64,000 bases of DNA, taken from NCBI GenBank assembly GCA_019055375.1, contig JAHQIW010006165.1:117128-181127 (forward strand). The letters run 5' to 3'. Position numbers and translations under genes: made by a program. This document shows, one piece after another, positions 11,083 to 58,093 of the stretch; position 1 is the first letter of the stretch, and every line of letters starts with the position of its first letter. The notes below the pieces were generated by a model, which did not search any database, had not been told where the DNA came from, and saw nothing but the letters and a program-made list of their open reading frames with translations. The stretch is from Parelaphostrongylus tenuis. Its lineage: Eukaryota > Nematoda > Chromadorea > Rhabditida > Metastrongylidae.

Positions 11083-11133
11083 ATTGACAATGGCCTGTAA
11101 TGCATTTATTACCATGGACTACGATTAAGGAAG

Positions 11134-11148: not shown

Positions 11149-11240
11149 CAAAAGATCGACTGTTTTTGAAACCCCGAAAAAAAAAATTCAATATAATTCC
11201 AGAAAAGAATGCTTAAAGTTTAGACGGGGTTGATACGCCA

Positions 11241-11613: not shown

Positions 11614-11661
11614 GGGTCACTGACGAGGAGGACGAACCTCCGAAACACCGGTGTATGACCC
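11614..11661 (+). ncRNA. Hammerhead ribozyme, F2 family, intact by inspection
   Basis: Stem I is 11614-11619 with 11656-11661; CTGACGA is 11620-11626; stem II is 11627-11641; GAAA is 11642-11645; stem III is 11645-11654; H17 is A11655. Sequence identical to the left-arm ribozyme. Read as one transcript, the two arms could instead pair with each other, which would compete with ribozyme folding. Confidence 0.88.
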
Positions 11662-11705
11662 TGGCGTATCAACCCGTCTAAGCTTTAAGCATTCTTTTTT
11701 GGAAT

Positions 11706-15779: not shown

Positions 15780-16645
15780 ACAAAAGTAGAACAAGAAAAT
15801 ATTCAATTAATATAAGAAGAATTCGAAGTGTATGCTTGTGAAAATGAAGTATTTGAGATATAGTTTGATAGGTCGCAAATTTAAGGCATTTCATGTGCAA
15901 TGAAGAGTAGTCACCATGATATTACTGAGTGCTTTTTTTTGAAACTGATTAACATTTAATTTCGGCATGAATAATCATTACTATGTTCCATTCATGCGGA
16001 TGCATGAGCTGATATATACACATTGCTGTAACGAGCACTCTGGCGCTATCGCTTTCATCAAATCTGCTATCAATCCAGTCTGAGTATCCACAGTTCTCGC
16101 CTGTAATATGCATTCTCTGGTTTTGCGGCAAATCTTACTCTTTGAGTGGAACACAGCTCGAATATACTGGGTAGACCCTTAATTTATTTTGAACCGTTGT
16201 TTTATTTTTTTTCTATGCCAAATCGAATTCTTGCCGAAAGGTTGTGACATGACGGAGAGTGTTCTTCAAACACTTGAATAGTGGCCGTATCATCATCACT
16301 CGTGATCGAAATGAAAGGGGCTACCGTAAGGAGACATCTCTCCAGACAGCTCCTGCATTGACCGACCACGACAGCGCTGCACGCCTAACTATTTGCGGAA
16401 GCCTTTTGCTGCGATCGAACAGGCAGACTTTCTCAAGGCGATCATTTGGAGATGAGTTCTGGGTTGACTGCGAAAACAACACGCACCACGCCTACTCTCT
16501 GGCTCGCGGCAAAGACTCGCCAGCTCAACCACCCAAGTTCCATGCTCTCACAATTATGCTCTTGATTTTCTGGGATTGGCAAGGCAGGTTTTTGGGAACT
16601 GCTCGAGAGTATACAGAAAATCAGTGCCGCCGTCTACGGGGAACA
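15780..16645 (+). mobile_element. Mariner-like element, left inverted arm
   Basis: About 865 bp that recur inverted at 18343-19215. Shared blocks include the GATAGGTCGCAAATTTAAGG segment, the TGGAACACAGCTCGAATATA segment and the transposase piece. The arm begins in non-coding DNA and ends abruptly within the transposase frame. Confidence 0.82.
16259..16640 (+). pseudogene. Mariner-family transposase fragment (first catalytic aspartate region)
   Basis: The plus frame reads ARLTICGSLLLRSNRQTF, then FGDEFWVDCENN (aspartate codon at 16451-16453), a SLARGKDSPAQP segment, and TIMLLIFWDWQGRF. This matches the mariner order RLxIC..LLxR, GDEkWV.y.N, GE......K, and mL.iwWD.kG. Only the middle third of a transposase of about 350 residues is present; the DNA-binding domain and the last two catalytic acids are missing. 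The inverted copy near 18343-18690 (-) keeps a cleaner KPKFHARTIMLLVFWDWQG stretch but has a frameshift just before the aspartate motif. Active mariners duplicate TA on insertion; ends could not be delimited here. Related families are known from hookworms, but I cannot assign this one. Confidence 0.8.
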
Positions 16646-18342
16646 ACTCTGTTTTCGAAATATAGCGGAGCTCAACAAATTCATGCAATTGTCGGCGAAC
16701 AGAGTGATCTACTCATTAGTGACGATGTGCGCTCTTATACATTGAACTGAATCTCATCTTAATGATGGCTGGTATCTGATGAACGTTCACGCGCAAAACA
16801 TCCGGATAACATTTGTCACCTTCTTCACAGTAATCGTAGTCATGACATTTCTGTAAGTACATAGAGTTCTAATCACATAAACACTATTTATTGAGATAGT
16901 AGGTGGTATGCAAATTGTACCTCGGTTGGGAGTTAAACCCGCGTCTCGTTAGCTCAAGAAAACCACTTCCCAACTGGTGCAGAAAGAATGCTAGAAGAAC
17001 GGGAGCCCCGAAAGTGCATGTTTGTTAGCATGCTCCCTGAAAAGGATGAGACACAAGTTCAACTCCCACCTGAGATCCGAAGTCTTGCATATTATTCAGC
17101 ATTCTTGACTATATAGATATAACATCATATCACTGCCACTAAAGTGGTAAAGGTAAGAATTCATGTAGTTAGTTTATTCATTAAAATTTGTTTGATTGAA
17201 AATGTTAAGTCATGTAGAACTGATAGAATTTGAGGCAAAGATTTGCGAAACACATCTACCAAAACTTGTTAGATTTCGCGTATTTCTTTGGACCTGACGA
17301 GAGAGAAAATGACGTTCTGTTTGATTTGCATATACTCGTGAGATTTTCGTAGGCAAGCCAGCTTTTCAATAATTGATAATTCCATTAAGTGACTGTAATC
17401 ACTCAATCACTTAATAACATCAGCAGTGTAGAGCCTCATGGATTTACAGAAGAGATTATCCTCTACCAAATTCATTATATGTGTAGGATTTATATAGTGT
17501 CTTACCTAATATTTAGTTTACCTTTTATTCTTAGCGTCGCATTGATTTCAGTACCTACTCAGTAATGAATTAATATCCGATAAACGGATTTATTTACATT
17601 ATTGCTTGATTTTCCGATACATAAAATGGGAAAACTGCATGAAAAGGGCTCAATGTGCTCAAGAATGGTTTCAAACGGCCATGACTACCGTACCTGCGGC
17701 AAATATGGTGTCCGTACAGTGCGTTCGATGTTAAATTGTTTACAACTGTTACCGCTCATATGAACTCGTAACAAAATTCGACTTAAAAAATTTTCAGCTG
17801 CAGAATACTGCTTGCATAATCCAGCTGTTCATTTTCTTTCGTGTTCGCAATACGAGCCGCAGAACCAATAGAGTAAGAAAAAACGAGAGGATTTGTACCT
17901 TTATGGCAAAATGGTTTGGATTCTGATAGTTTCATAAAATTACAAATATCTTATGTTATTCAGGATCTTGTATAAGTCCGATATGTAATATTTACTGTGG
18001 CTAATATATCGGACGCCTTTGCGTTCTTTGAACCTCAATGATTCGAGGCGACTGTCCACAGCTGCTCAAAAGTAGATTGTCAGGATAACGTTACAATTAT
18101 TTGTGCAAAAAATCAAATAATCAATAGTATAATTATCATAGTGACTAATTAAATTGAGGCTGGCGATTAAAGAAGTCGGTGAGGTCATATCAGGCCTTAC
18201 CGTGGATTTGGTACCTCCGTCAGGCCCACTTTCTCCAAAATGTGACAAGTCGACTTTACAGCGTGAGGTCGAACGTTGTCCTAGAGAAGAGCAACGTCGA
18301 GTCGTTGGAACGCTTTTCCCGCACTGCTGCAGTCAACTTTCA
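16646..18342. other. Spacer between mariner arms
   Basis: No gene recognised. Contains a small tRNA-like foldback at 16905-17095. Confidence 0.45.
16905..17095. mobile_element. Foldback element with tRNA-like arms, diverged
   Basis: Left arm TGTACCTCGGTTGGGAGTTA with AAACCCGCGTCTC is the inverse of right arm GAGACACAAGTTCAACTCCC followed by ACCTGAGATC. The same acceptor- and B-box-like pieces define the 10776-11082 family. Confidence 0.5.
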
Positions 18343-19215
18343 GAGCTGTTCCACGTCGACGGCAGCACTGATTTTCTGCATACTGTCGAGCAGTTCCCAA
18401 AAACCTGCCTTGCCAATCCCAGAAAACCAAGAGCATAATTGTGCGAGCATGGAACTTGGGTTTTGGTTGAGCTGGCGAGTCTTTGCCGCGAGCCAGACAG
18501 TAGGCGTGATGCGTGTTGTTCTCGCAGTCAACCCAGGGCTCATCTCCAAATGATCGCCTTGAGAAAGTCTGTCCTGTTCTATTGCAGCAAAAGGCTTCCG
18601 CAGATAGTTAGGCGTGCAGCGCTGTCGTGGTCGGTCAATTCAGGAGCTGTCTGGAGAGATGTCTCCTTACGGTAGCCCCTTTCATTTCGATGACGAGCGA
18701 TGGTGTTACGGCACTATTCAAGTGTTTGAAGAACACTCTCCGTCATGTCACAACCTTTCGGCAAGAATTCGATTTGGCACAGATAAAAGAATAAAACAAC
18801 GGTACAAAATAAATTAAGGGACTACCCAGTATATTCAAGCTGTGTTCTACTCAAAGAGTGGGATTTGCCGCAAAAACAGAGAATGCATAATACAGGCGAG
18901 AACTGTGGATACTCTGACTGTATTGATAGCAGATTTGATGAAAGCGATAACGCCAAAGTGCTCGCCACAAGCAATGTCTATACCAGCTTATGCATCCGCA
19001 TAAATGGAACAAAGTAATGATTATCCATGCCGAAATTAAATGTTAATCAATTTTTAATAAAAAGCACTCAGTAATATCATGGTGACTACTCTTCATTGCA
19101 CATGAAATGCCTTAAATTTGCGACCTATCAAACTATATCTCAAATACTTCATTTTCACGAGCATTACTTCGAATTCTTCTCATATTATTTGGATGTTTTC
19201 TTGTTTCACTTTTGT
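18343..19215 (-). mobile_element. Mariner-like element, right inverted arm
   Basis: Inverted copy of 15780-16645, carrying the minus-strand transposase fragment. The two arms differ by scattered substitutions and small indels, so they are old rather than a recent assembly artefact. Confidence 0.82.
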
Positions 19216-19479: not shown

Positions 19480-19700
19480 ATGGTCAACAACCCAGTCAGT
19501 CAAACACCTCCATTACTCCATTGAAAAAAATTACCGGACCTAGATTTAAATCGCACCAAGCACAAAATCAAAACTCAATATACTCCACCGCTTTTTATAT
19601 GTGTTCCACTAAATGATCCAAATAGAAATCACAGGAAGGAGAGACACATAGGCTCGTAATGCACCCTCCCCATCAAACAACAGTTTTATTAAGATTTTTC
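19480..19700 (-). repeat. Penelope-like element terminal repeat, left (inverted)
   Basis: The minus strand matches 20370-20560 (+) and 54600-54730 (+): TGGAACACATATAAAAAG, a TTTTGTGCTTG.TGCGATT block, then GAGTAATGGAGG. This copy stops before the ribozyme-like segment seen in the other two. Confidence 0.72.
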
Positions 19701-20270
19701 GCGATGATGTTTTATGCTCCTGCGCAATGATGGTGACTTCGATTTCAAAATCAACTCCGTCGTGCTTCTGTGTTCTATGCGTCCCTAGCGGAGTGTTTCG
19801 TCTGTTAAGACGCTTGTCAGCTAAGTGTTCTTCTATGCGGGCATTGAGCGGCCAACCGTTTCGCTAATATATTTATCACTACACGCTTTGCAAGAGATTA
19901 TGTAGACTGTACTTACGCTCATGCAATAACTGTCTCTGCCGTTAGGACATATTTTACAATCTTTCGCTATGCAGAGACGGTCATATGAGCGGTTGCGAAC
20001 CAGTTGGCGTTTTAGAGTACTCGGTGGTATTTCTATAGTGGTCACCGATTGCTCTAAACCCGCTCTTTTCAAACAGCGTTTTATAGCTGTACTGATCTCA
20101 TTTGAAAAGAACGGAAGGATAAACGGGACTTTCCTTTCATTCGAGTTTTCGTTCGGAGGCGCGTTATTTCCTCTAAACCTAAGCCGAGAGGTAACAAATT
20201 CGTATTCATTAGAAGTAGCTATTTCACGAGCCAGTTTCACGCATTCTACTCTCTGCTTCTCGGAAAACAT
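19700..20270 (-). pseudogene. Penelope-like element GIY-YIG endonuclease region
   Basis: From 20270 downwards the minus frame runs from an EKQRVECVKLA stretch through FSNEISTAIKRCLKRAGL and IPPSTLKRQLVRN to CKICPNGRDSYCM and VYIISCKACSDKYI. After one frameshift near 19860 it continues as LNARIEEHLADKRLN, TPLGTHR, and a HDGVDFEIEV...AQE..SSRKIL tail. This is the C-terminal nuclease of Penelope-like retroelements: the conserved VYxI-C--C---YIxET-GR core, the arginine and EH segment, and the terminal glutamate region. The reverse transcriptase normally upstream is missing. The fragment sits between inverted copies of the terminal repeat. Such nucleases make the nick used for retrotransposition. 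A dead copy, but good evidence that PLEs were active in this genome. Confidence 0.85.
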
Positions 20271-20369
20271 TAGACCGAAAAATCTTGCAAGCGTTTTGGA
20301 TTAATACGACTAATCCAACTACAAACCGCTGGGAGGAATAGCTCGTAAACACTCGTGATATGAGCCAGT

Positions 20370-20660
20370 AAATAAGACTATTGTTTTGATGGGTAGGGCA
20401 GTACGAGCCTATGTGTTTCTCCTTCCGGCGATCTCCACTTGGATCATTTAGTGGAACACATATAAAAAGTGGTAAGTATGTTGAGTGTGGATTTTGTGCT
20501 TGATGCGATTGAAATCTAGGTCTGGTGATTTTTTTTGAAAGAGTAATGGAGGCGTTTTTTGACTGGTTGGATTGCGGATATTTTGACCTTTCCAGGCTCC
20601 GAAGAAGGCGAACTGCCGAAACCTCAGTTGTCGAATAACGTTTACTGTAACATCTCGTGT
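20370..20660 (+). repeat. Penelope-like element terminal repeat, right
   Basis: Plus-strand copy carrying GATCATTTAGTGGAACACAT, then the DNA shared with 19480-19700 (-) and 54600-54840 (+). It extends into the candidate ribozyme at 20599-20632. Confidence 0.72.
20599..20632 (+). ncRNA. Candidate PLE-type hammerhead core (F4)
   Basis: The order is CCGAAGA, GGC, loop GAACT, GCC, GAAAC, then a terminal GTC. The copy at 54766 has CTGAAGA at the first motif. This resembles the minimal hammerheads reported in PLE terminal repeats, with a very short stem III. Stem I pairing is not evident and one extra A precedes stem II, so I rate it only as a candidate. Confidence 0.4.
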
Positions 20661-22030
20661 TCTGCTTAGAGAAGGAAATCAGGAATTATATTAAAGCATG
20701 CCGAGGTTATGGGAATTGCAGAGAAATACTCTCAACAGCATTGCAACAAGTACACAAATTTTGAAGGAATTTGGATTTTATTTGTTTATAATAATATATG
20801 AGAACAAATGAGATACCGTTTCCAGCGTAGTTTTACCAGTAATTGATGGAGAACACGAAACATAAGTGAACCCAGCTCATTACTCTTTTTAATAGTCCAC
20901 GAACGACTGAACTCCTGCAAATCGAAGCTGGTTCATGTTACCCATAACCATTGACAGTCTAATTTTCTTACACCACTGTAATGGACGGATAGAATAAAGC
21001 GAAGAAAAAATTCACTTGATTTAACATAAGAAAAATGTATCCTGATAGATGGAGACTGCTGTGAAGATCGCGACAATTAACACATCATTGCTTTTTCGAG
21101 TATAAACAGCCACAAAGCATATGGTCCAAGAGTGTTCAATAACATGCTTGAGAGGTTAATTTGCCGTGGATTTCAAAATATTTCGAATACATCAATCAAG
21201 ATGCATAGAATGAATGCTAAGTATCAACAAAGAAATTTCCTGATATCTCTCATCAGGGATTCTTTTCCTTTTACGATCGATTGAAAGCAAACAGTTCTTT
21301 GTGGAACTAACGTTCCGACGAGTACGGAAGCCTTTCCTTCAAAACATTTAACAGTTCGACATGTTTCGATCAAAATTTTTGATTATGTCGAAAGGTTCTC
21401 TTCACAGGTCAGTGCCCTGATTTTGAACTAAGGAGCATCCACACCAATGCGATGTGTTGTCGACGCTGTAACAGAAACTTCCCAAAAATAACCTTGCGAG
21501 CATAGAGACCGGCCTGGGTGGAGCTTCATTATAGCGTTGTTGTCGGCGCCGTAGCATACGTCGCGCGTCTGTACCCTCATCCCTCATGCTTCCTGCCTCA
21601 CTTTCTCACAACTCTCTGCCGTCTACACTGTCAGAGATTGCGCACCAAGGATAGGCGATATACGACGCACACAACGCAACATGAAGCGGTAGTTTTTGCC
21701 AACTTCAGCTCTGTGGTGTGCCATATCAGCTGCGGCAATTTGTTTCCCAGGACACTCCTAATTCGGAAGGTTCGTGTTTGAAGAGCTCGCCTCCTGTGGA
21801 TTAAGATGTTTTATCTGCGGGGGGTGAGGAATCCTAATCGCATCCTACCGCTGCCGGACCCGGCCTAACAATCACATTCAAATTCAAGTCGTTCTGAATG
21901 GCTTTCCCTCTGAAGACCTGACTTCAGTGTACGTTATTTTGAATTTAATGGAGATAATACTTTTTGTCTACTCGAGTTCTTATTATTTAATGTTTATAGC
22001 GCAGTCGGATCAATTCACTGAAGTAAAACA
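20661..22030. other. Unrecognised stretch with a GC-richer island
   Basis: 21400-21880 is clearly richer in G+C than its neighbours, with CG-containing blocks such as GTCGGCGCCGTAGCATACGT. Open frames on both strands are short and show no family motif. Confidence 0.35.
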
Positions 22031-26915: not shown

Positions 26916-27079
26916 GTAAAATTTTTTTTACAAGCATTCGTACTATTATAACCCATGGCCACTCTATTCGTGAAAGATATGTTTTTGGAAAGTTAGATTG
27001 GTCGCGTAAAGGCCAATGTAGTATTTCTGAAAAATTCATTCGCACTTCTTCTGCGTTTTACAAGGGTATGGGTCGAAAA

Positions 27080-27480
27080 GAATGCTTCAAGCCATTTCGA
27101 GGTTGGTACGCCAGTGGTCTACGTACGTTTCGGCGGTCCCGCCTCCTCATGAAAGCCACATGCCCGCACTCAGGTCTCACTACTGATAGTACGGACAGGG
27201 AGACGTTGTTATGGTGAAATTGCGGCTTCCACGTTTTCACCAACCTATTCCAGTTAATGGCATATGGATGTTGATTTAGACAATGCTCCTTACATACCGT
27301 CGACGGAAATAAAACGGGCGAAATTTTTGGAAGCGCAATCTCAACGCAACAACATCTCTTACTTTCTGTTATCAGTAAGGAGACCTGCGCGCGGGACGTA
27401 TGGCCCCGATGAGGCAGGCGACTACCAAGACATACGTGAGCTAGTGATGTACCAACCTCCAAATGGTTTGATACAAACTC
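27080..27480. mobile_element. F2-related foldback, strongly diverged
   Basis: Left arm GAGGTTGGTACGCCAG and right arm GATGTACCAACCTCC are inverted. The left arm keeps a minus-strand remnant (about 27112-27158) of stem II GGCGG/CCGCC plus GAAAC, with a mutated first core. The right arm has CCGATGA at 27406-27412. No working ribozyme is left. Confidence 0.5.
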
Positions 27481-29427
27481 TTCGAGAATATTGAGTGTTT
27501 ACAACAACGTCGTATAAACCAGTCGCACGTAAGGGTAAGATTTGATAATGCTTACAAAACACTTTTTCATACCCCGCTGATATGAATGCATTATCTCCTG
27601 TTGTTGTCTCGCCGTCTTTTAAAACATGACAGTTGCATGGTAGAAATTCTGATGACAATAGGATGGGGTTAACTAAAATAAACGTACATATATCGTTAAT
27701 ATCAATATGCGGTGCTGGTTTTTACTTCCGTTTATAGCCCTCAGTAAGTCGCTAATCTTTGAACTGCACCATCGCCGAAGGATTCTTGTCTGGAAACAAA
27801 TGTTAAATGCACCCTAGAACAAGCTTAACCTTAACATATTCTCAAGACAATGTTTCCATATTCAAGTGAAAATTATTAGCTTTCTTGATTGTAGACCAGC
27901 AAATCTCACCTCTCAGGAAACCTGATTAAAATAAAGAGCATCGAAACTAACGGACCTATATCAGCGATGATGCAGGTAAGCGTATTCTGATGAAACACTT
28001 TTTGATATTGCTGAATGCATTATTAAAAGCCCATAGTCTTTTAGCGAACAAGAGAAATTATTCTATAAATTCCCTACAATACCAAGTCTCTTAGTATACA
28101 GTCATCACAAAATAGCCGATTGTTGACGAAAAACCAGCACAAGACTGATAGCAACGACTGTTCAGCATTCCTAAAATTCCTCGTTTATTTCTGAACATGC
28201 CAAGCACTAAAGTGATTTGTCCTATAAACATTAGGGCCTAGTGGACAGTTTATATTATATCCTTTCATTTTCATGGGATACGGTCAACTAAGCTTCCAAG
28301 CGCTGCGGAATTAGTTTCGACTTGGAAAAATCGTACTAACAGTACTTTTTCCAAATTTGATCTTTACAAAAAAAAAGAAATTAATTTGAAGATGACGTAT
28401 CAGGTTTGAATCGAACGACGAGTCGATCATTTATTCTCGTTTCTGAATTATAACCTCATTATTGGCATCGTACTTTCGCACCTCTCATCATCTAGCAATG
28501 TTCTGCACATCTCCAACCGCACCGCGTTTTCATCACACTGAAAGTCTGGTCCATAACAGACTACATCACATGTTGGCTCAAGTAATAATTATCAGTTATA
28601 CCCAATGATGTAGAGGGATGTGCAAACCTTTTGCGTTAGGCGGAACTCGGAAGTTTTGCACATCACTCTGCATCAAAGGGTATATTGGCCACTTCGTACC
28701 CACTGCTAGAAGCGGTTGAATAAAGAAGAATTTTAATTGATCATCATTATCCAATATCTGTCAGCGTGACTGGGTCCAATGTCAAAACCGACTACTCGGG
28801 CCAGGTCGTTGACGGTTGGCGGCTAACACATAGATGCGCTGTAGCGTAGAAGAAGTGGTGTGCAAAATGGGCATCAGTAGTGTAACGGGTTAATGCACGC
28901 ACTCCCTTGAGTTTCGTTTTGGATAATCATACAATTGTTAAATGATCTTCAAAATCTTCATATGTATTCGCGTAGTCATTTTACAGCATCAGTGCGAAAA
29001 AGCAACTTTTCCTCGCCCTTTTAATAATAAGCATTTCATAATTATTTCCAAAGTTAGACAGGCCATCAAATTTCTATTAAGATTTCTAAAGCATATTTGA
29101 GGCAGTTATGGTCACGTCTCATGCTGCAGACTGTTTATTGGATCCTAACATTCTCAATTTTATTAGCTTTTTTGGTCAACAATGAGAGGTGTTTTCAAAC
29201 TGTAAACGTAAAGGTTTGCTTCTGCCTATCCTAATTCATACCAGTTTATTAGATCAGCCAGATATAAAAGTACCAAAGGCTTTCTACATTGCACACAATA
29301 AATCTTCAGACTGACTGATTATTCAACAAATTTTTCTTGATAGTTCATCGCCTCCATAAGGCAACGATATGGAAAAAATTACATTAGGGTAATGTCCAAT
29401 CGGAGCACTGCACGGCCGATCTTCGTA
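27481..29427. other. Intergenic sequence with an F1 end remnant
   Basis: 28545-28600 carries an F1 arm end (CATCACATGTTGGCTCAAGT). Otherwise nothing is recognised. Confidence 0.4.
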
Positions 29428-31949: not shown

Positions 31950-32900
31950 AATTTTAAATAATCGTTTGATAGCACAACTTATAAAAATTTGAACGTATAT
32001 TTCGTTTTCCAAAAAAACCTTCTAATTGCGCTGAGAGAGCAAAATAATAATTTGTTCCTCATTCAAAGATTTCTCGCTGAACCAGGCCTCTCTCTTATAG
32101 CTTTAACAACCAAACAATAGACCAAATCTCATGAATTCCAATAATGTTTTGGTTCCTTGAACGAACTTCTTAGTGCTTCATGGGAACCAAGGAAAAACTG
32201 TGTTTAGCACCCGATGCTTTGCTTCCCGTTTGCGAAAACCAACGTTCTTTTGACTGTTACAGCGTAATACGAGGTCGATATTCAGAAATGAACTAGATTA
32301 CTGGATATTCCTATTATTAATCTATCAAATAATTACTAAAACTCCGAAGGAATGGTTTTGGTCAAAGAGAAATTTCTGAATGAGAAACAAATTATCATTA
32401 TGCTCTTTCAGCGCAATAATGTTGCCTCTACAAGGAAAAAATGCAACCACTAAAATTCTTATGACTTGAACTATCTTTTGTCATTGATTATTGAAAACGA
32501 CCGAAGAATACGCTTTTTATAAGGTATCGAAGTGAAACGGACAACACAAGTGATCCAGGGTAACGGAAACCCAATCTTCTTTGGGCTGCTACAGCGTAAT
32601 GCGTATTTCATTCTAAAACCAATAATTCTCTGAAATTCTTAAAATTTGATCTATCGCACTGGTTTCTAAAACTCGAAAGGAGAGTGCTTTGATCAATGAG
32701 AAATCTTTGAATGAGTAACAACTAATTGCTTTGCCTTCAGCGCAATAATAAGGCCTTTTAAAGATGGAATACATCACCCTAGTCCTTTTGATTCAAGCTA
32801 TTTAACGATCTTCTAATCATAAAAAAAAAGCAAATAAGCTTTCTCTGAAGGGTTGTAAACAGCGCTTATATAACGGAAAAGTACCTCAAAAAGTACAGAA
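31950..32900. repeat. R5 repeat, copy homologous to 51400-52340
   Basis: Direct-orientation homology to the 51.4-52.3 kb block: GCTTCAT(G/A)(G/A)GAACCAA, ACGAGGTC.ATAT, and GAGAAATCTTTG.ATGAG then CTTTCAGCGCAATAA. Within each block the CTTTCAGCGCAAT unit recurs inverted (ATTGCGCTGA), so the repeat is built of inverted units. Confidence 0.6.
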
Positions 32901-35054: not shown

Positions 35055-35395
35055 TATTGATACCTTTCTTTCGCGTGCTTTATTAAGACCACGCTCAAAT
35101 TTCAATAAAATCTTTTCATTATTACCTGAGCCAACTTGCCATGTGGTCTGGTAAGGGCTCTTGTACAGCCTGATACACGTGTTTCGTCCTTACAGACTCG
35201 TCAGTAGGACAGATGTCGTCGTCTTTCGATATTTTCATAGTCGGTTTTCTCGGGAGCTTTGCTTCCTTGCAGAGTTGTCAAAGACGAACGTTTTACACTC
35301 TATTTCAAGCGAAATTTTCACCTAACACAGAGTGTTTTTGCACTCGATTGCTCGCTGGCTGGTTTTTTTTATCATCATATTAAATTTTTATTCCT
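35055..35395. mobile_element. F1 element, one arm plus central region
   Basis: Carries GACCACGCTCAAATTTCAAT, the GAGCCAACTTGCCATGTGG signature, a ribozyme, and the F1 centre (CTCGGGAGCTTTGCTTCC, CAAGCGAAATTTTCACC, GATTGCTCGCTGGCTGG). The second arm is absent. Confidence 0.75.
35168..35210 (-). ncRNA. Hammerhead ribozyme, F1 family, stem I damaged
   Basis: The minus strand retains CTGACGA, stem II GTCT/GGAC, GAAA and ACACGTGT exactly. Stem I (GTCCTA against TCAGGC) has two mismatches next to the cleavage site. Confidence 0.68.
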
Positions 35396-38870: not shown

Positions 38871-39121
38871 AAGATAGTTGCCGCGAAAAGTTTTACTCCT
38901 GAGCTCTTGAGAAGGACTAAAAACCTGATTCGCCAAAGATACTCACCATATAGGTGCCTGAGTATTGAATACAATGTTGCCCCGTGAAACAATTTCATAA
39001 AGATGTAATTCTTGCTTTAAATTGAATCTTAACCATGCATCGGCTGTTTTCAAAACCTCGCAATAAACATTCAATATAAATTTTGAAAATTTTCAAAGAT
39101 TTATTCAAGGTTGGTACGTCA

Positions 39122-39158
39122 GGGCCATACACGCGTGTTTCGGAAGTATCAGTAGCCC
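39122..39158 (-). ncRNA. Hammerhead remnant, F2 family, stem II deleted
   Basis: On the minus strand stem I GGGCTA/TGGCCC still pairs fully (one G-U), and GAAA with ACACGCGTGT remains, but the DNA between CTGAT and GAAA has shrunk so that stem II is gone. Inactive. Confidence 0.65.
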
Positions 39159-39403
39159 ACGCTCCAAATTAAACCTTGCATTGTAATAAACAGCGTGTAT
39201 AGCCATGACCTGCCAACCTCGGATAAATCTTTGAAAATTTTCAAAATTTATATTGAATGTTATTGCTAGAGTTTCAAAAACAGTCCATGCCATGGATCAG
39301 CTTCAAAAACCAGCCGAGATGCATTGACTGAGAAGTGCTGTACACTGTGCCGCCACCACATGCGTCTCCCTCCTTGCTACAATGCAGGCTTAATGTGGGG
39401 GGT

Positions 39404-39451
39404 GGGTCGCTGATGAGGAGGGCGAGCTTCCGAAACACTCGTGTATAACCC
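39404..39451 (+). ncRNA. Hammerhead ribozyme, F2 family, nearly intact
   Basis: CTGATGA (39410-39416), stem II GGAGG/CTTCC with one G-U pair, GAAA (39432-39435), and stem III in ACACTCGTGT are all present, with A39445 at the cleavage position. Stem I GGGTCG/TAACCC has a G-U and one mismatch. Confidence 0.78.
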
Positions 39452-39480
39452 TGGCGTACCATCCTCTTTTAGACATTAAA

Positions 39481-40399
39481 CATTCTTTTCTTTTAAAAAA
39501 TGTACATGATTGCGATGTATGGTTATGTGAGTATGATTGGACGAGATGTATTGTCGTGTGACGATACTATGAATGCTGTTATTGAAGAGCATGATTAGGA
39601 AGCGGAGCCCGTTTGAGGTCTCACTCAGGAGTACAAGCACCGGTGGGCAGGATTCAGTGAAAGAGTATATTATGACAACAGTGGACTCCTGATTATATAT
39701 GGGCAGAATCCCTTAACGCTGTGGTAAGTCGAGCATAGCTTAAGTGAGTTCCTCCTCTAAAGTGATATGTCCGCTCACAATTATATTGAGTTCGTCTGAC
39801 AGTTGTATGAACGCAACCTAATGACACCACTTATATACTGACATCGATTTTGTGTGATGAGAGCAATAATGGGTCGATAATGAGTTGGGGTGAGGTGGTC
39901 TCGGTGATGTCAGACTAGCGTTCGGATGATGTCCAGCGATCAAATATGACTGTTAAGGTTGGCATCAGCCGCTTACCGTCCTCGCCACTTGGATAATTTC
40001 TATCTAAGATCCTCGAACCTCTGCGATGCCATTTGCTCTCTAAGGTCATGGACCATCTGTGTTGCCTTAATTATCATGCAAATCCCGAGAAGATAGCAAG
40101 CTTCCTTGGGAGTTTGCTATAGGCATAATGCTCCATCGGATTATTGCCTCTTCCTCCCTTTCTAGAAAACTATCTGCGACAGAAAAATTTGAGCACTACG
40201 GCTGTCTAAAAATGGACTTCAACCAATTTTTATTGCTCGCTTTATTTATCCTGGAAGGAAAGCGTCTAGTCCCTGTTCAGAAAAGTAGCTTCATATCAAT
40301 CATAGTGGTGATCATATTTGCTGAATAAAGTATGTTGACTAATTTTTTCTGAATGAATAACAACTTATCTGATCGAGCGTTCCAAACATCCCTATAAAG
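39481..40399. other. Intergenic sequence, nothing recognised
   Basis: No supported features. Confidence 0.4.
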
Positions 40400-40760
40400 A
40401 TTCATTACATTCTGTGAGAGTGCCCAAAGCTTTACCGAGGTTGCTATGTCAGAGTCATACGTGGGTTGCGGAGGTGTCGCGCTCTTCATCAGTGGTTCAT
40501 GCCACACTGAACCCTACTTTATAGCAAGGATGGCGAGACGCTGTTTATGCTGATAGCACACGATTTTATGTGTCACATTTCTTCAATCGATAGATTAATG
40601 CTGGCAGTGAGTATGTAGAAATACATCTCAATCTCAACGACTGTTTTGAACCTCGCTATAAACATTCATTATAATCTGTCAAATACGCGAAACTCCGATA
40701 AAGATAGCGATATCTCTGAAACGTGAGTATGACTCTGACATAGCAACCTCTGTAAGCTCC
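40400..40760. mobile_element. F2-related foldback, strongly diverged
   Basis: Inverted arms keep GAGTCATACGTG and CGTGAGTATGACTC around decayed ribozymes. The minus-strand one (40453-40498) has CTGATGA but GCAA instead of GAAA. The plus-strand one (40689-40735) has CCGATAA with an AGATA/TATCT stem II and GAAAC. Confidence 0.58.
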
Positions 40761-40853
40761 AATCATTCTCGCAGATATGTTGAATAACAGTAAAATTAAG
40801 TCCGAAATTCTAGCATTTTACTGCCTTTTTCGCAGTGTTATGATATTACTTAT

Positions 40854-41244
40854 ATACCTAATAGAATTGAGTAAGCAAAACCACTTTCTTAGTCGCGAAT
40901 CGAACCCGCGTTTCATCCATTCCGGGGACACGTGCCCTACCACTACACCACCGAGACAACGTTTGCCCGATCAGTCGTTCTTCATCATCCCTATAATAGC
41001 TATCAGCCACACAACCTTTGATAGGTTCAGTCGGTATGCGATTTCGCTTTATAACTAGAATTTATAGAGAAATACCAGAACTTTGGAGTATTATATCTAA
41101 CACTAACCGTTAGCTCAACTGGGTTTATAAAAAGTGTACCTCGGTGGAGTGGTAGCAGAGCACGAGTCCCTGGATAGGAAGAAACGCAGGTTTGTTTCCC
41201 ACCTGAGGCCGTGCTTTTGTCCAGCACTCCAATTCTCTTAGGTA
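40854..41244. mobile_element. Foldback element with tRNA-like arms
   Basis: Second copy of the 10776-11082 family, with the same ATACCTAA.AGAATTGAG end and its inverse. The minus-strand left arm contains GGGTTCGATTC and CCTCGGTG equivalents. The plus-strand right arm has GTACCTCGGTGGAGTGG, a B-box-like AGGTTTGTTTCCCACC, and GAGG closing the acceptor. Confidence 0.68.
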
Positions 41245-41264
41245 AATAATGAACGATAAAGCTC

Positions 41265-43479: not shown

Positions 43480-46364
43480 TCTTAAAAATCTAAGCAAATA
43501 TTCTAGACTTTGATAAAAAAAATTATTGTCCATTTTCTTGCATCAGATAAATCATAAGAGTACACACGATTTTGGCACTCAGCACTTAGACGTGGATGAT
43601 GTCGCCCAAACTGCCTTGAGTTTTCAAGCGCTCTAAGGTACCCAGCCCTTCGATTCAGAGCGGAATCTTTTTTAAGCACGTTTTTGTTACACATGCTGCT
43701 ATTCAGAAGCATAATTGATCGGTTAGTAAAATGAAATGACTGCCAAATGTTGAATAACATGGGTTGCGTAGAAATGAACACTTGATTAGAAAGCGCATGA
43801 ATCCATAAGTTCTTCAGGTTGAGCAGTTCCATAGCTTCCCGCCATCTCATTTATCTGCGGCGGCATAAAATCTCAACAATCTTGAAAATTTAAAATTTGT
43901 TTCGACAACATGCTAACGTTAGAGATCGGCATAGGAAAGGTAAGTGGACAATGCGAAGAATGCAAATGACATGACAATGAGCAGAGGCTTCCTTACTGAC
44001 TTTTTCAAACGTTCCAGTTTTGGAAGCAGGTGGGTGCCTGTGGTGCGCTTTCAATTTTTCATAAACTCTTTATTATGTACAGAAAGAGGAAAATCTAGTG
44101 GGCGTACATTTAACATTGTGAAGTCTCCTTTCATTTATTTTACGGTTACAAACTCCACAGAACACATCTCATTTCTAATGTTTTAAGGACATTGAAAGGC
44201 TTTAAATTTTTCAACAAATTACTTTATTTCAAGCGAGGCTATTTTAAGAGAACAGTCCAATATAAAGATTTTAAAAAGACTATCTGGAAATAACGAACTG
44301 CTGCTTTCTTGCATTCAGAATCTTTCTGCTCAAGACAACGTTTCAGCGCATGTAATGCTGTCTTACAGCAGAGTGATCTGCATCTAACGCGATTCCGCCA
44401 TCTTCGCCATTATGACAATTTTACTCGTTCTTCATTTCGTAAAAACGCTCTGCAACAAAAAGTGGATTGTGTTCGGATTCTAAGTGCTCTTTGCTGATTG
44501 CTCCATCTCCGACAAATGGAAAAAATCATCTGGAGAATATTTAGTTTTCTGCGGCATTATCCAGTAGTGAGAGCGTAATATTTAAAGCAGAAAGTTCCAC
44601 TTTTTTCCATAATGTAGCTAGGAATCTCCGACTTTTAACATGGCGAATTCGGCTTCGTCTATTGCTCGTATGACGGATTGGAAACATCGTCATCGCAGCA
44701 GAATTATGGGTGCCGTTATGAGTTTTTTGCGAACGACGACTAAAGTTGAACAGGAAGTTCCGTGTCAGTTTGTTTGATTTGCCAAGTCACGAACAATTTA
44801 GCTATAATATTCTCTCTGCTTTTTCACTGCGGTACTGTTTCGATCATTGCTTTCACAAACTGTTTTGCCAAAAATCATGTGAACACAATTGCCTCACATC
44901 GTTATTTCATGTGGATATATCCGGTAGTTTTCCACCCGGAGCAATTTTTGAATCGTCATGTCGTCCTCCCAGTTCTTCGTCTATGATTTTGATGCTCATC
45001 ATGTGGCTTTCCATTGTTCGTTTCTATCAAGGAGTCCAGCTCACATTTTCTCCGACAGCTTGGCACGCAGAATGCTATCTATGCCTTTTGATACGTAACG
45101 CAGGCCGGAACTTAGGACGATTTTTCTCATCTGCGAGTTATTGTGGGTTCAATAACACCAAAAGATGTTTCATCGTGTTTGCACACTGTAAGAGTCACAA
45201 AGCACATGTTGAATATTCATTAAGTTGGAAGTTGGAAGCAAAGTCAGATGCCTTTTGCTCTTTTTACTGTATTCTCTATCCTCTTACAGGTATCTTTCTT
45301 TTCAACTCACAAGATAGATCGTTCACCATATCGTCGACCTACATCGATGCAGCTAGAAACATCCGGTCTGCTTGGATGGTGCTTGGTATCATTAGAACGA
45401 CCTCACCAATGAAGTAAATAGTGTAATACGCAATTATTGCATTTCACTCCTATGTTGCATCTTTCCAACATCTCCATGATGTTCTCGAAGGTGGCGGTGA
45501 ATAATTGGAGGGGTGGCTTTATTTTGTCAAATCTCCCACTATTCAGGCCGATGTAAAAAACATTACAGAATGGTGATATTTTGGTTGCGATATCTCTATG
45601 TAGCTTGTGAGGGTAAGCCAAAAAAGGGCGAAATTCATCAATCAAGTGACTACGAAAACACTTGTGAGCCGTTAGTGTTCGCTTGCATTTATCAACTGCC
45701 TGGGTTCCACATTGATTTTGTGCGCGACGCGCGACGAGCGCAGCTCGTTACAATGGTAATGTAGTAGCTTCCCTAAGAAATTTGGATTTCTTATCATTAC
45801 TAAGGAGAGTTGAATAGTCAATAAGTCAGTAAAAGAAGAAATATGCTAAAAGAGACTTCAAAAAGATATACATGGTTGGAGCACATTAAAATAGTCATAA
45901 AACAATGAAGTGCTCTCCAATATTGGTCATGCACATTGTAATGTAATGGGATTTCAGCGATAATTTGGAGAAAATCTATGGAAATTAGTGGACTATATGA
46001 AATGAAGCGTAAGTAGAGTTCTAAAAGAGATTGTGCTCTACTTTGTTAGGAGTGGAAATTTTTTATAAATCCTCTTATACTCTCATGAATATCGTTTCAC
46101 ACCTCCGCAACCTGAAAATCCTGCAAAGGTCTTTCTTCAAACACCCTATTCTTGTAAAGGAAATTGAAATGCTCACGAGAAAATCATACTTCGATCTCTT
46201 ATGGAACTATTCTATGGTTTCCTATCTAAGTCAAATAATCCACATTTCAAGCAGTTTATCACTTACTTCCTAAATTAATATATCCTATATTCCTGTATTA
46301 AGAGCAATAACCTCTACGCCTTGATACGAATAGGCCAATATTCAATGACAATATATCTTTGTTG
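43480..46364. other. Intergenic sequence with unassigned open frames
   Basis: A 45-codon frame at 44642-44776 starts MANSASSIARMTDW and RSRIMGAVMSFL and could be a first exon. A 223-codon plus frame (44746-45417) is cysteine- and serine-rich without domain motifs. Neither shows family resemblance, and I do not call them genes. Confidence 0.3.
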
Positions 46365-46735
46365 CGAGTATTTTATTAAGACCACGATCATATTTCAATA
46401 GATCCTTTCATTATTATATGAGCCAACATGTCATGTGGTCTGGTAAGGGCACTTGACACTTGAAACAAAGGTATAATAGATAAAAATGCCAGCCAAAGAG
46501 CAATCGAGTGTGCAACACTCTGTGTTGAGTGAAAATTTCACTTGATATAGAGTAAAATGCTTGTCTTCGATATCTCTCTGCAGGGAGAGCAGGCTCCCGA
46601 GAGAACTGACTATCAAAAAGATCAAAAGACGACGGGATCTGCCCGACTGACGAGTTTGCAAGGGCGAATCACGTGTGTCGGGCTGTACGAGAGAATTACG
46701 AGATAAATTCACCGATTTTGGTATAGTTTCATGAC
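46365..46735. mobile_element. F1 foldback element, rearranged
   Basis: The left arm (GACCACGATCATATTTCAAT, GAGCCAACATGTCATGTGG) is cut short before its ribozyme. The centre and a ribozyme-bearing right arm follow. Confidence 0.72.
46641..46683 (+). ncRNA. Hammerhead ribozyme, F1 family, catalytically dead by inspection
   Basis: Stem I GCCCGA/TCGGGC is perfect and CTGACGA is intact. Stem II is weakened to G-U pairs. GAAA has become GAAT, and the cleavage-site nucleotide is G, which hammerheads do not cut after. Confidence 0.72.
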
Positions 46736-49692: not shown

Positions 49693-50060
49693 AGAAAGAC
49701 TTTTTGATGCCTCTGCCATCGACCGTTCTTTTACAAACCCGCTCAAAACGAAATAATCTGATAAGGATATGTCTTGTTTTGAGCCGATAGGTCTGGTGCT
49801 ACATTAGGCGTCTATTGCGTCCTATTGGGACTCATCAGTAACACCTCCTCGGCTCCGCCGATCCCTCGAGGCTGAATAATCTTCTAAAGGAATCAAAGCC
49901 GAGTAGAAAATAGGGACCCCAAGTCGGATGATGGTACTACCTGACGTTGTGGTGACCGGCGGTAGAGCTTGCGGCTTTCGATAAATTATACCTCTGCTAT
50001 CAACCCCTCTTTTACTGACCCGCTCAAAACAAAGTAATCTGATAAGGATATGACTTATAA
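49693..50060. mobile_element. F3 element, single ribozyme between direct repeats
   Basis: A direct repeat of about 65 bp (49693-49760 and 49995-50057; CCGCTCAAAAC and AATCTGATAAGGATATG) flanks one ribozyme arm. The same repeat, inverted, lies inside and at the end of the complete F3 element at 53533-54000. Confidence 0.72.
49795..49845 (-). ncRNA. Hammerhead ribozyme, F3 family, decayed core
   Basis: On the minus strand stem I GGTGTTA/TAGCACC (7 bp, one G-U), CTGATGA and stem II GTCC/GGAC with loop CAATA are sound, but GAAA has become GCAA and the nucleotide before stem I is G. Probably inactive. Confidence 0.72.
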
Positions 50061-51349: not shown

Positions 51350-52350
51350 TCTCCGTTCGCACCCCTTGTAAAAATCATATTTCTTGGACATTGTCAGTGC
51401 TCAAATAGTCGTTCGATAACACATGGCAGAAAAATTTGAATGGTGTATCGCATCTTCAGAAGAGTCTTCTTATTGCGCTGAAAGTGCAAAACTGAAACTT
51501 CGCTCCTGATCCAGAGACTTCTTGCTGACCAAAGTTTTTCCCTTGGAGGTTTACTAATTAATTAATAGATCAAATTTTCAGCATTCCAATGATGTCTTTG
51601 ATTTTTACAAAATGGGTTTCACGAAAATTGGAACATCAACTATCCTTCTCTCCCTTCGATCCATTGGAAAAACGTATTTTTCGGTCCGTTCTTGATGATT
51701 AAATAACATCGATAGCTTAAATCAAAACAATTTATATAGTGTATTTCGCTTTCAAAAAAGCCTTGTTGCTGCGATGGAAGAGCAAACAAAATATTTCGTT
51801 CCCCATTCAAAGTTTGTCGCTGACCAGAGCTTTTCTCTAATAGTTTCAGCAGCGAAACGATAGGCCAAATCTCAAGAATCCCAACAATGTTTTATGGTCT
51901 TTTGAACGAACTTTTTAGTGCTTCATAAGAACCAAAGAAAATTGGATTTCGCACTCGGCGCTTTTTTCCAGTTTTGTTAAGCCCAATCCTCTTTTGGGTT
52001 TGAAGGCGATACGAGGTCCATATATAAATCAATGCAGTTTTCAAGATCTAATTTATCGATCGATTATCAAAGCTCCGAAGGGAAAGCTTTGGTCAGCGAG
52101 AAATCTTTGGATGAGAAACGAATTATTTTTGCTCTTTCAGCGCAATAAAAAGGCCTTTTTGAGGATGAAGTACATCAATCAGTTCTTCTTTTTTCGATTT
52201 ATGCTGTCAAATGGTTATTTAAACGTCAAAAAAGAGAGAATAAGGTTTTTTTGAAGGATCGAAACGGAGAGCAGATAACGGAAAAGTACCAAATTTTCTA
52301 CGATTACCTTGATTTAAAAATCGTAATTTTAGTGCCGCTTAAAATGGTTT
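51350..52350. repeat. R5 repeat, copy homologous to 31950-32900
   Basis: Direct-orientation partner of the 32 kb block, with internal inverted units (ATTGCGCTGAAAG at the left, CTTTCAGCGCAAT at the right). Confidence 0.6.
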
Positions 52351-52619
52351 TCTTTGAACTATAGGGTATTGCCTAGTGATTTTCCGAGCGACTTTTGTTT
52401 TCCATAGACAGTGACTAGCATAGTTCCGCTTTTTTTGATACCTGCTCTATTCCTCTTGGACACTTGTAAATGGACGTTGATCGTAGAAGATTTACCATTT
52501 TCCATTACAGTCAAGCTATACTGAATGACCGAGATTGCAACAACGAATGAGAGCAAACTGCGTAGTTGCTTTTCCGAAAGGTCAAACACCAATAGAACAA
52601 TTTTCTAAGTATTAAAGAT

Positions 52620-52860
52620 GGGCTGATTTATAGAGCCCGATACACGTGTTTCGATCTTGTGTTGGGAAGGGACAACCACAGAGATTAGCAAAAGACGAGA
52701 ATGGGTAACTACCCGATTGAGAGATCGTAAGACCGAAACACGTGTATCGGGCCCTATAGGTCAGCCCATCTTCAACAGACCACATGACATGCGTGGCTCA
52801 ACAAATGATTATTTAGCATATTGAAATCTAAGCTGAGCTCTTAAGAAAACACTCGAAGCG
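52620..52860. mobile_element. F1-related foldback, diverged
   Basis: Both arms keep AGCCCGATACACGTGTTTCG or its inverse and the F1 end CACATGACATGCGTGGCTCA. The right arm (52711-52752, +) still shows stem I CCCGA/TCGGG and GAAACACGTGTA, but the first core has a deletion (TTGAGA). The left arm has lost that core entirely. Confidence 0.65.
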
Positions 52861-53072
52861 ATTGATATGTTATATTGAAATTTTTAACTGCTCCCAAAAA
52901 AAATTCTTTGGAGGGTTTTCGATCATCTTAGGAAGCAATGTGAGTCATGCTAGCGCTGGGAGACTAACAAAGTATCACAAGATTGAAATTTACCTTCTAC
53001 CCCATCCATCTGTTCCATCTGCAGAATTTACAAAAAAGATGGAAGCTATTTGAGATGTGAGTTCCAAGCCCC

Positions 53073-53521: not shown

Positions 53522-53532
53522 TCTTAAAGGGA
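53522..53532 (+). repeat. Target-site duplication, left copy (F3)
   Basis: TCTTAAAGGGA, repeated exactly at 54001-54011. Confidence 0.65.
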
Positions 53533-53535
53533 GCA

Positions 53536-53583
53536 GTGATATACAGGCTCTTGTTTCGCTCCATTGGGACTCATCATTATCAC
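53536..53583 (-). ncRNA. Hammerhead ribozyme, F3 family, one core change
   Basis: On the minus strand stem I GTGATA/TATCAC is a perfect 6 bp, H17 is A, and GAAAC is intact. The first core is ATGATGA (C3 changed to A), and stem II has a one-base bulge. Confidence 0.75.
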
Positions 53584-53867
53584 CCTCCCTTGGTTCAGCC
53601 GATCCCCTGAGGTAAAATAATTCTCCAAAGGAATCAACTCCGAGTAAAAACCACCCCAAGTCAGGTGGACGTAAGATGATTATATCATTTTGAGCGGGTC
53701 TATAAAACAGTCGATAGAAGAGCTTTGTTCATTTTGACAGCTACGTATTCGACTGCCGGTAACCACAAGGTCACGTAAGTACATCACCTGACTTGGGGTG
53801 ATTTTTTATTCGGCGACGATTTCTTTGGAGGATTATTTAACCTCAGAGGATGGCTGAACCGAGCGGG

Positions 53868-53916
53868 GTGGGTACTGATGAGTCCCCATAGGACGAAACA
53901 GGCGCCTGTATAACAC
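53868..53916 (+). ncRNA. Hammerhead ribozyme, F3 family, core intact
   Basis: CTGATGA (53875-53881), stem II GTCC/GGAC with loop CCATA (53882-53894), GAAA (53895-53898), stem III in ACAGGCGCCTGT, and A53910 at the cleavage site. Stem I GTGGGTA/TAACAC pairs with a small internal loop (GG against A). Stem II resembles the classic schistosome hammerhead. Confidence 0.85.
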
Positions 53917-54000
53917 TAGACCTATCAGCTCAAAACATGTTATATCCTTATCAAATTATATCATTTTGAGCTGGTCTATAAAAAGCGGTCGATAGAAAAG

Positions 54001-54011
54001 TCTTAAAGGGA
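54001..54011 (+). repeat. Target-site duplication, right copy (F3)
   Basis: Exact copy of 53522-53532. Confidence 0.65.
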
Positions 54012-54599: not shown

Positions 54600-54840
54600 G
54601 ATCAATTGAATCATTCGATGGAAACACATATAAAAAGCGGTGAGTATGTTGAGAGATGATTTTGTGCTTGATGCGATTAAAATCTAGGTCTAATGATTTT
54701 TTTTCAAAGGAGTAATGGAGGTGTTTTGACTGATTGGATTGCGGACAGTTTGACCCTTCCAGGCTCTGAAGAAGGCGAACTTCCGGAACGTCAGCTGTCA
54801 AATAAAGTTTAATTTAACACCTCGTGCTTGGCTTAAAGAA
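54600..54840 (+). repeat. Penelope-like element terminal repeat, solo copy
   Basis: Same order of blocks as 20440-20660: AACACATATAAAAAG, GTGCTTGATGCGATT, GAGTAATGGAGG, TTCCAGGCTC, then the candidate ribozyme segment and AAATAAAGTTTA. No coding DNA is attached. Confidence 0.7.
54766..54803 (+). ncRNA. Candidate PLE-type hammerhead core (F4)
   Basis: CTGAAGA, AGGCGAACTTCC, GGAAC, then GTC. Compared with 20599-20632 it restores the U of the first core but has GGAA for GAAA, so a consensus of the two gives both canonical core boxes. Stem I is not evident. Confidence 0.38.
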
Positions 54841-55149
54841 GAAAAACAGAAATCAAAATAGTGATAATTAAACTTTGCTGTCCTCTTATCCTAACACGTT
54901 TATCACGACTTCAAAATAGCTTTGCTGACTGAGAGATTATCTAATAAGCTAGTTCAAACTTTCACAGAATTTGAGGAAATCAGGGAAGTGGCAAATGAGA
55001 TGTCACAAAGATCTCATTAAAGTGATAAATCAAAAAGAAAAACGTGCTGGAATTACTTGTGCAAAAACAGCAGCACCGAAGCATGTCTACCTTCTGTAAC
55101 GTTCCAACTTTCTCATAATGTGAATTTTTTTATAGCATCATTGTTTGCG

Positions 55150-55345
55150 AGCTTTTCTTAGCCCCACATTAAGCCCTGCACTGTAGCAAGGAGGGAGGCG
55201 TATGTGGTATGTAGTGATGGCATAGTGTACAATGACATGTGGGGCGGGGGTCACTGACGAGGAGGACGAACCTCCGAAAACCGGTGTATGGCCCTGGCGT
55301 TCCAACCTCGTTTAGGCTAAAAGCATTCTTTCTTTTTGGAATTAT
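55150..55345. mobile_element. F2 element, single arm
   Basis: CCCACATTAAGCCCTGCA, then GGAGGGAGGCGTATGTGGT and a ribozyme arm ending in AAAGCATTCTTTC, as in the complete F2 copy. The other arm is missing. Confidence 0.74.
55248..55294 (+). ncRNA. Hammerhead ribozyme, F2 family, nearly intact
   Basis: CTGACGA (55254-55260), stem II GGAGG/CCTCC and GAAA are identical to the 11.6 kb copy. Stem I GGGTCA/TGGCCC still pairs over 6 bp, with a T-A pair turned into T-G. Stem III has lost one C. Confidence 0.8.
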
Positions 55346-55389
55346 TTTGAATGTTTTTTTACGAGGTTTTAGAAAACTGTCGATTTGAT

Positions 55390-57600: not shown

Positions 57601-57608
57601 TATTTAGA

Positions 57609-57621
57609 ACAAAAAAGTTAT
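57609..57621 (+). repeat. Target-site duplication, left copy (F1)
   Basis: ACAAAAAAGTTAT, repeated exactly at 58081-58093. Confidence 0.75.
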
Positions 57622-57679
57622 ATCCTTTCATCATTATTTGAGCCAACATGTCATGTGGTCTGGTAAGGGCTCTTGTACA

Positions 57680-57722
57680 GCCCGAGACACGTGTTTCGTC
57701 CTTACAGACTCATCAGCCGGGC
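57680..57722 (-). ncRNA. Hammerhead ribozyme, F1 family, intact by inspection
   Basis: On the minus strand: stem I GCCCGG/TCGGGC (6 bp including one G-U), CTGATGA, stem II GTCT/GGAC closing GTAA, GAAA, ACACGTGT as stem III, and H17 = C. All conserved core nucleotides are present. Confidence 0.9.
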
Positions 57723-57932
57723 AGAACCCGTCGTCTGTCGATCTTTTTATAGTCAGTTCTCTCGGGAGCGTCACACTCCTTATATATAGTTATCGACGAC
57801 ATACGCTTTACACTCTATGTCAAATGAAACATTCACCTAACCCGGAGTGTTGTGCACTCGATTGCTCATTGGCTGGTACTTTTATCATAATTATACCTTT
57901 ATCTCGAGTGCTTTGTTTAGACGACGAGTTCT

Positions 57933-57975
57933 GCCCGGCTGATGAGTCTGTAAGGACGAAACACGTGTCTCGGGC
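57933..57975 (+). ncRNA. Hammerhead ribozyme, F1 family, intact by inspection
   Basis: Stem I is 57933-57938 with 57970-57975, CTGATGA is 57939-57945, stem II is 57946-57957, GAAA is 57958-57961, and the cleavable C is 57969. Identical to the minus-strand copy in the opposite arm. Confidence 0.9.
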
Positions 57976-58080
57976 TGTACAAGAGCCCTTACCAGACCAC
58001 ATGACATGTTGGCTCAAATAATGATGTAAGGATATATTGAAATTTGAGCGTGGTCTAAACAAAGCACTCGAGATAAAGGT

Positions 58081-58093
58081 ACAAAAAAGTTAT
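58081..58093 (+). repeat. Target-site duplication, right copy (F1)
   Basis: Exact copy of 57609-57621. Confidence 0.75.

Follow-up and report, generated by a model that had tools for sequence, protein, structure and literature searches.

A head-to-head hammerhead ribozyme insertion in Parelaphostrongylus tenuis with an insertion pattern like that of Penelope-like elements

The 64-kb stretch of Parelaphostrongylus tenuis DNA analysed here (the window) contains an insertion, F1, in which parts of a 320-nt, ORF-less unit lie head-to-head, pointing away from each other, between exact direct repeats (Table 1). A preliminary description of this DNA had reported two identical, intact-looking type I hammerhead ribozymes in opposite arms and a perfect flanking duplication, and both observations hold. 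The hammerheads have the same sequence, one on each strand, so that either strand of a transcript would carry one, as had been proposed; the covariance-model search suggested as a check gave a significant match for each, above the Rfam gathering score for Hammerhead_1 (34 bits). CTGATGA, GTCT/GGAC, GAAA, ACACGTGT and a 6 bp stem I (five Watson-Crick pairs and one G.U) are all present, and the predicted cleavage positions are C57969 on the plus strand and the complement of 57686 on the minus strand.

The arms of F1 (57619–57736 and 57919–58036) are 98% complementary. A second inverted pair (57891–57926 and 58049–58084), absent from the preliminary description, indicates that the left arm crosses the unit boundary of a tandem or circular template. 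Read in ribozyme orientation, this arm starts with the last 27 nt of one unit, continues over the unit boundary (...AAAGGTATAATTATG...) and through the hammerhead, and stops at GAAAGGAT; the right arm starts a little upstream of its own ribozyme and extends to the 3' end of the unit, ...GATAAAGGT. The outer ends of the two arms thus fall into different classes: T, at the 3' end of the unit, and N, some 45 nt upstream of T. The sole frame of at least 130 aa over F1 (57608–58021) spans both arms and matched no Pfam family, and units of 270–320 nt are too short for the reverse transcriptase or GIY-YIG endonuclease of a Penelope-like element (PLE). Neither a distant blastn comparison with a phage collection nor one viral-contig pattern scan gave a match. 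F1 is read here as one insertion of an ORF-less tandem or circular unit of ~320 nt, and not as a designed pair.

Table 1. Features of the F1 insertion and related loci (positions in the window).
Feature	Position	Strand	Remarks
F1 insertion	57622-58080		459 bp, between perfect 13 bp duplications
Left target-site duplication	57609-57621	.	ACAAAAAAGTTAT, exact 13 bp repeat
Right target-site duplication	58081-58093	.	ACAAAAAAGTTAT, exact 13 bp repeat
F1 N arm	57622-57922	-	inverted, without tail; outer-end class N as in 78 mixed loci
F1 T arm	57923-58080	+	5'-truncated unit, ends with tail at the unit's 3' end
F1 tail	58034-58080	+	stretch between N and T end positions, ends ...GGTCTAAACAAAGCACTCGAGATAAAGGT
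Type I hammerhead	57680-57722	-	RF00163 (Hammerhead_1), 34.9 bits, E 5.5e-05
Type I hammerhead	57933-57975	+	RF00163 (Hammerhead_1), 34.9 bits, E 5.5e-05
F1-family copy A	1155-1812	minus, minus, plus	head-to-head; shares the N end GAAAGGAT with F1
F1-family fragment	10671-10769
F1-family fragment	28549-28604
F1-family copy B	35055-35378	-	single full unit
F1-family copy C	46354-46693		head-to-head pair
F1-family copy D	52612-52869		degenerate head-to-head pair
F2 locus	49711-50054
F2 head-to-head insertion	53533-54000		11 bp duplication TCTTAAAGGGA at 53522-53532 / 54001-54011
F3 head-to-head insertion	11149-11705		each arm with a hammerhead core pattern; flanked on either side by TATCTGCGTGTAATT, an exact 15 bp repeat
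Other F3 loci (about)	6233-6404, 27073-27485, 39033-39494, 40417-40755, 55161-55384		those at 27 and 40 kb divergent
Truncated PLE	19493-20709		C-terminal part and 3' region; itself a head-to-head pair

That the arms can anneal, as had also been suggested, is borne out by the predicted fold of the F1 plus strand, a single long hairpin (-270.7 kcal/mol, z -22.7) in which the sense ribozyme is buried. Since such a transcript folds on itself, masking of its ribozyme is probable, and small RNAs for silencing could arise from the locus. For the isolated hammerheads, the minimum-energy structure is not a hammerhead and not unusually stable (z -0.26 for F1, -0.31 for F3, -1.55 for F2) by a folding method that is blind to tertiary contacts.

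The window holds about 15 loci, some of them fragments, of three hammerhead-unit families (F1, F2 and F3), including six F1-family loci besides F1, two of which are fragments. Of the 15 inverted repeats that are 40 nt or longer and have arms no more than 700 bp apart, 12 have coordinates within these loci. The two arms of the F2 head-to-head insertion give weak hammerhead matches (17.9 and 17.2 bits, E 0.16 and 0.45), with a changed core in one, and the F3 head-to-head insertion gives no Rfam hit despite its core patterns. Compared from the 3' end, the tails of F1 and F2 are alike (equalled by 0 of 5000 null windows), as are those of F2 and the F1-family unit B (1 of 5000); F1 and F3 tails are less so (117 of 5000), and F2 and F3 (569 of 5000) and B and F3 (808 of 5000) are not alike.

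Other repeats in the window include inverted repeats at 51437–52181 and 32039–32734 without a tie to the hammerhead families, and short repeats, some mutually inverted, at 10775–11084, 40852–40951 and 41135–41247. A weak tRNA-like match (10978–11047, 23.1 bits, below threshold) overlaps one of the latter, perhaps a tRNA-derived SINE. Fragments of mariner-type transposases lie at 16253–16747 (+) and 18284–18607 (-) (Transposase_1; 14.3 and 25.4 bits, cut-off 24).

In a first look at the 481.5 Mb host assembly, F1 drew 3678 candidates, unit B 3921 and the F3 unit 2156. The best 40 per query were scored, which biases the samples toward copies similar to the query, probably young ones. They yielded 113 further insertions, again the best-scoring ones. 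Of these, 37 were found with F1 as query (S1), 39 with unit B, a single unit (S2), and 37 with one arm of F3 (S3). S1 is biased toward inversion, its query being F1 itself, and all 37 of its loci are head-to-head. S2 and S3 (76 loci) came from single-orientation queries. In S2, 29 of 39 loci are head-to-head, eight have one orientation and two are composites (+-+ and -+-, with one tail-to-tail junction apiece); in S3, 26 of 37 are head-to-head and 11 have one orientation. Every simple two-arm locus in these two samples is thus head-to-head (55 of 55), beside 19 of the 76 loci with one orientation and the two composites, and no simple tail-to-tail locus was found among them. Direct tandem units do occur inside arms, yet 55 of the 76 loci are simple head-to-head ones.

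The outer ends follow a pattern of their own. Across all samples, one T and one N end were found in 78 of 92 head-to-head loci; two of the others are T/T, one is N/N and 11 have another end class. Where both ends could be classed, 78 of 81 loci are mixed, against 40.5 expected under independence, for classes that were defined after the end positions had been seen. With S1 left out, the figure is 46 of 47. The single-orientation loci have a T end in all eight cases in S2, and five T and six N ends in the 11 cases of S3. To the eye, a short motif recurs in similar form at the T and N ends (GAAAGGTA and GAAAGGAT in the F1 family, TCTTTTGAATT and TCTTTTTTGGAATT in the F3 family), and it might set where copying starts.

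An Rfam scan of 20 fetched loci (six from S2, 14 from S3) placed only one, L051 of S2, at threshold, so the intactness of ribozyme cores was scored by an uncalibrated rule of our own, which found at least one intact core in 30 of 37 (S1), 25 of 39 (S2) and 36 of 37 (S3) loci. F1 itself has a type I hammerhead, as retrozymes do; the evidence for its relatives is weaker.

Matching flanking duplications at other copies, suggested earlier as a further check, were found as well. Target-site duplications (TSDs) were scored as length minus 3 per mismatch, with mispaired flanks (n = 297) as control, and could be scored in 91 of the 92 head-to-head loci, the remaining one (L105) running to a contig end. 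A score of at least 9 was reached in 64 of 91 loci and in none of the 297 controls, and a score of at least 8 in 69 of 91 against eight of 297; the duplication is beyond chance at the family level. By sample, scores of at least 9 were seen in 29 of 37 (S1), 15 of 29 (S2, the weakest) and 20 of 25 (S3). The commonest repeat length is 12 bp (20 of the 55 mixed loci with a score of at least 9), and F1 and most of the sampled head-to-head relatives have duplications longer than 4 bp, as retrozymes do. In raw percentages, against a background of A 30, C 20, G 20 and T 30%, the left flanks of 55 loci have A at -3 (47%), A at -2 (63%) and C at -1 (34%) and are then A-rich, and the right flanks have G at +1 (32%), T at +2 (54%) and T at +3 (50%), with a T-rich far end. 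This symmetric preference fits an endonuclease that would cut both strands at the same motif and leave 3' overhangs.

Arm lengths vary, and 49 of the 78 mixed loci have an arm that exceeds one unit. Since arms often run past the unit boundary, the template would be circular or multimeric. Examples of long arrays are L110, with two minus and seven plus full units 99.6% alike across arms, and L105 (G000:C1583:140000-148446), an array of F3 units with 16 full minus and then eight full plus units and one central inversion. Units in L105 are 95.0% alike across arms (minus pairs 97.4–100%, plus pairs down to 82.7%), and with arms no more alike than this it need not be one event. F3 loci differ mutually at about 5 per 100; in shared variants, the arms of one F3 locus differ at 0.18 per 100 against 2.07 between loci, and in the F1 family the figures are 1.44 and 4.64. 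One circle or a homogeneous multimer may therefore usually serve both arms. Two templates are also possible: at least three shared-variant differences separate the arms in 19 of 63 F1-family loci, and L051 has 17. Inner ends scatter between loci. Just five of 184 fall no more than 5 nt from the predicted cleavage site, and the 32 that read as unit positions 1–3 do so partly because the linear probe ends there; cleaved linear monomers are thus not the usual template. At the inner junction the arms overlap in 20 of 92 loci, abut in 14 and leave a short alignment gap in 58.

The host also has many copies of a PLE. The frame of the window copy (19836–20300, minus strand) gave 12,510 first-look candidates in the genome, and the 150 of these that were scored include open frames of up to 978 aa. 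Among the 150 scored hits, 13 of the 15 neighbour pairs within 5 kb are head-to-head, two are same-strand and none is tail-to-tail. These frames are taken here to be PLE frames from features of the C-terminal sequence (the GIY-YIG region) and the 3' layout; searches of them against Pfam and NCBIfam found no family, even at E 10, and against PDB sequences none. One copy end, L122, has what we take to be a GIY-YIG type C-terminus, followed by a stop and, by eye, a hammerhead-like core (L122:485–511) without Rfam support. Its alignments to 39 other places end at L122:616–638.

The F3 tail, when end-anchored, resembles this end region of the PLE (equalled by 2 of 5000 null windows), a likeness spotted by eye before the test; its best place in L122:300–701 is 616, at the edge where the alignments to other copies end. 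The end-anchored F1, F2 and B tails match weakly (372, 195 and 808 of 5000 null windows as good), and the best places of F1 and F2 lie away from the PLE end. Unanchored local alignment placed none of seven tails at the PLE end, so the PLE that would serve F1 was not found; a profile of the F1 and F2 tails found nothing in L122. A PLE 3'-region fragment in the window (54603–54855) stops at position 574 of L122, near the expected place of an N end. The flank past the PLE end (L122:676–701) is similar to the beginning of the B tail (equalled by 4 of 500 shuffles, compared with 164 of 500 for F1).

The reading preferred here, at a probability of roughly 0.75, is that F1 is one insertion of a retrozyme-like hammerhead element that is non-autonomous and is mobilised in trans by host PLEs through dual priming. 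Tandem copies would be transcribed, and their hammerheads may cut and circularise the ~320-nt unit. A dimer of the PLE reverse transcriptase/GIY-YIG protein would then cut both target strands about 12–13 nt apart with 3' overhangs, as suggested by the duplications and the symmetric flank preference. Each 3' end would prime reverse transcription on the element RNA from a start site of its own, giving the observed T end on one strand and N end on the other. Each reverse transcriptase would run for a variable distance, often, as the arms show, past the unit boundary, and the two cDNA ends would be joined head-to-head at the variable points seen at the inner junctions. The inverted ribozymes would be a by-product of dual priming, and an integration signature is a better explanation for the inversion in F1 than a pair of ribozymes with a function. 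Against a PLE mechanism are the T/N rule, for which the start sites in PMC11167929, seen without strand difference, offer no explanation; the TSDs in just 15 of 29 S2 loci; the weak match of the F1 tail and the outcome of unanchored alignment; the 14 loci outside the T/N rule; and the single-orientation and composite loci of S2 and S3. It is proposed more tentatively, and with considerable doubt, that both arms result from rolling reverse transcription round one ribozyme-made RNA circle, from two fixed entry sites, one per target strand. If so, a PLE could write head-to-head tandem arrays in one event (compare L110), and the T/N rule would reflect an asymmetry built into the PLE dimer.

An inverted 5' part with duplications would likewise be expected from LINE-type twin priming by a non-PLE reverse transcriptase, in which the second strand anneals at a chance place upstream on the RNA, and the overlaps at 20 of 92 inner junctions could be its microhomologies. 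Under twin priming, however, the second start site should vary and the arms should cover separate parts of the RNA. In 78 of 92 loci the second start lies instead in a fixed region about 45 nt upstream, and in 88 of 92 the arms share 60 or more unit positions. The F1-family and F3-family ends that were inspected show no poly(A) tail. This route is quite unlikely. Self-priming (snap-back) of one cDNA was put forward for Penelope palindromes and head-to-head repeats in PMC3846280. As the tail sits in the T arm, it would need that arm to be made first and the N arm to be its shorter copy, but the N arm is the longer one in 35 of 78 loci, and each arm has sequence missing from the other in 14 of 92. 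Both outer ends are also fixed, and the arms of L051 differ at 17 variants that are common elsewhere, suggesting different templates. Snap-back is therefore unlikely, even though the arms of one F3 locus share variants (0.18 against 2.07 per 100) and containment is common, with extra unit sequence in one arm alone in 57 of 92 loci and in neither in 21.

The pair could instead be a selected functional device, for example with one ribozyme per transcript strand and mutual masking. The intact arms of F1 and its very stable hairpin would suit this, as would the 24 of 113 loci (6 of 37, 4 of 39 and 14 of 37 in S1, S2 and S3) with cores in both orientations by our own rule. However, just one arm covers the ribozyme in 33 of the 92 head-to-head loci, inner ends differ from locus to locus, single-orientation copies exist and different families have the same layout. 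Such a device is very improbable, and the sample suggests that young copies lose the second ribozyme at random. A foldback DNA transposon or an assembly artefact can hardly account for these loci. Foldback transposons carry long inverted repeats, and palindromes can arise in amplified DNA, but the outer ends, T and N, do not mirror each other and the inner ends are uneven. There are also tandem copies and copies with a single arm, and the flanking duplications differ between loci.

The preliminary description had set the inverted pair apart from Penelope elements, and here it does not stand. As an example of typical Penelope structure, PMC3846280 describes two direct pLTRs next to an inverted one, together with a TSD of 9 bp and a 'tail' of 31 bp, so inverted pLTRs, duplications and a one-sided tail had already been published for PLEs. 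As described there, Penelope/Poseidon-type PLEs share inverted terminal units, a tail at one of them, head-to-head arrangement and 8–10 bp duplications with the present elements, and F1 and the sampled loci combine inverted terminal units, TSDs and a tail at one end in the same way. PLEs also share the hammerhead and tandem copies (PMC11167929, PMC7761336). They differ in that F1, F2 and F3 units are about 270–320 nt and have no reverse transcriptase or endonuclease frame, and in that PLE hammerheads are characterised in PMC7761336 as minimal, without helix III or loop-loop contacts, whereas stem III of F1, F2 and F3 is palindromic. In the in vitro account of PMC11167929, a PLE protein cuts and extends both strands, with two start sites bounding the tail and no strand difference seen between them. 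The end pattern in the sequences of the sampled loci fits two such sites. The pairing of T and N ends would be a constraint on PLE integration that is absent from that account, and one that could be tested with purified PLE protein and these short RNAs.

Metazoan non-LTR retrozymes, as described in PMC7229834, share the type I hammerhead, units of ~170–400 nt (a range that includes the 320 nt of F1 and 270 nt of F3), the lack of LTRs, tandem units (here inside arms), duplications of more than 4 bp and the presence of PLEs in the same genomes. They are described as tandem repeats, and the word 'inverted' occurs 0 times in the main text of that paper; most insertions sampled here, unlike these, are head-to-head with one T and one N end. 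Further marks of retrozymes are self-cleavage and abundant RNA in linear and circular form. The satellite retrozymes of newt and axolotl share a weak helix III with a palindromic part, and their ribozymes act better as dimers; they differ in forming tandem arrays, with no inverted insertions in the description given in PMC7229834. A literature search found no report of inverted retrozymes, though the key papers on PLE hammerheads may contain one. PLEs are named in PMC7229834 as a strong candidate for the enzyme that moves animal retrozymes; here, ORF-less hammerhead elements in a PLE-rich genome carry a PLE-like insertion signature, seen at near-base resolution.
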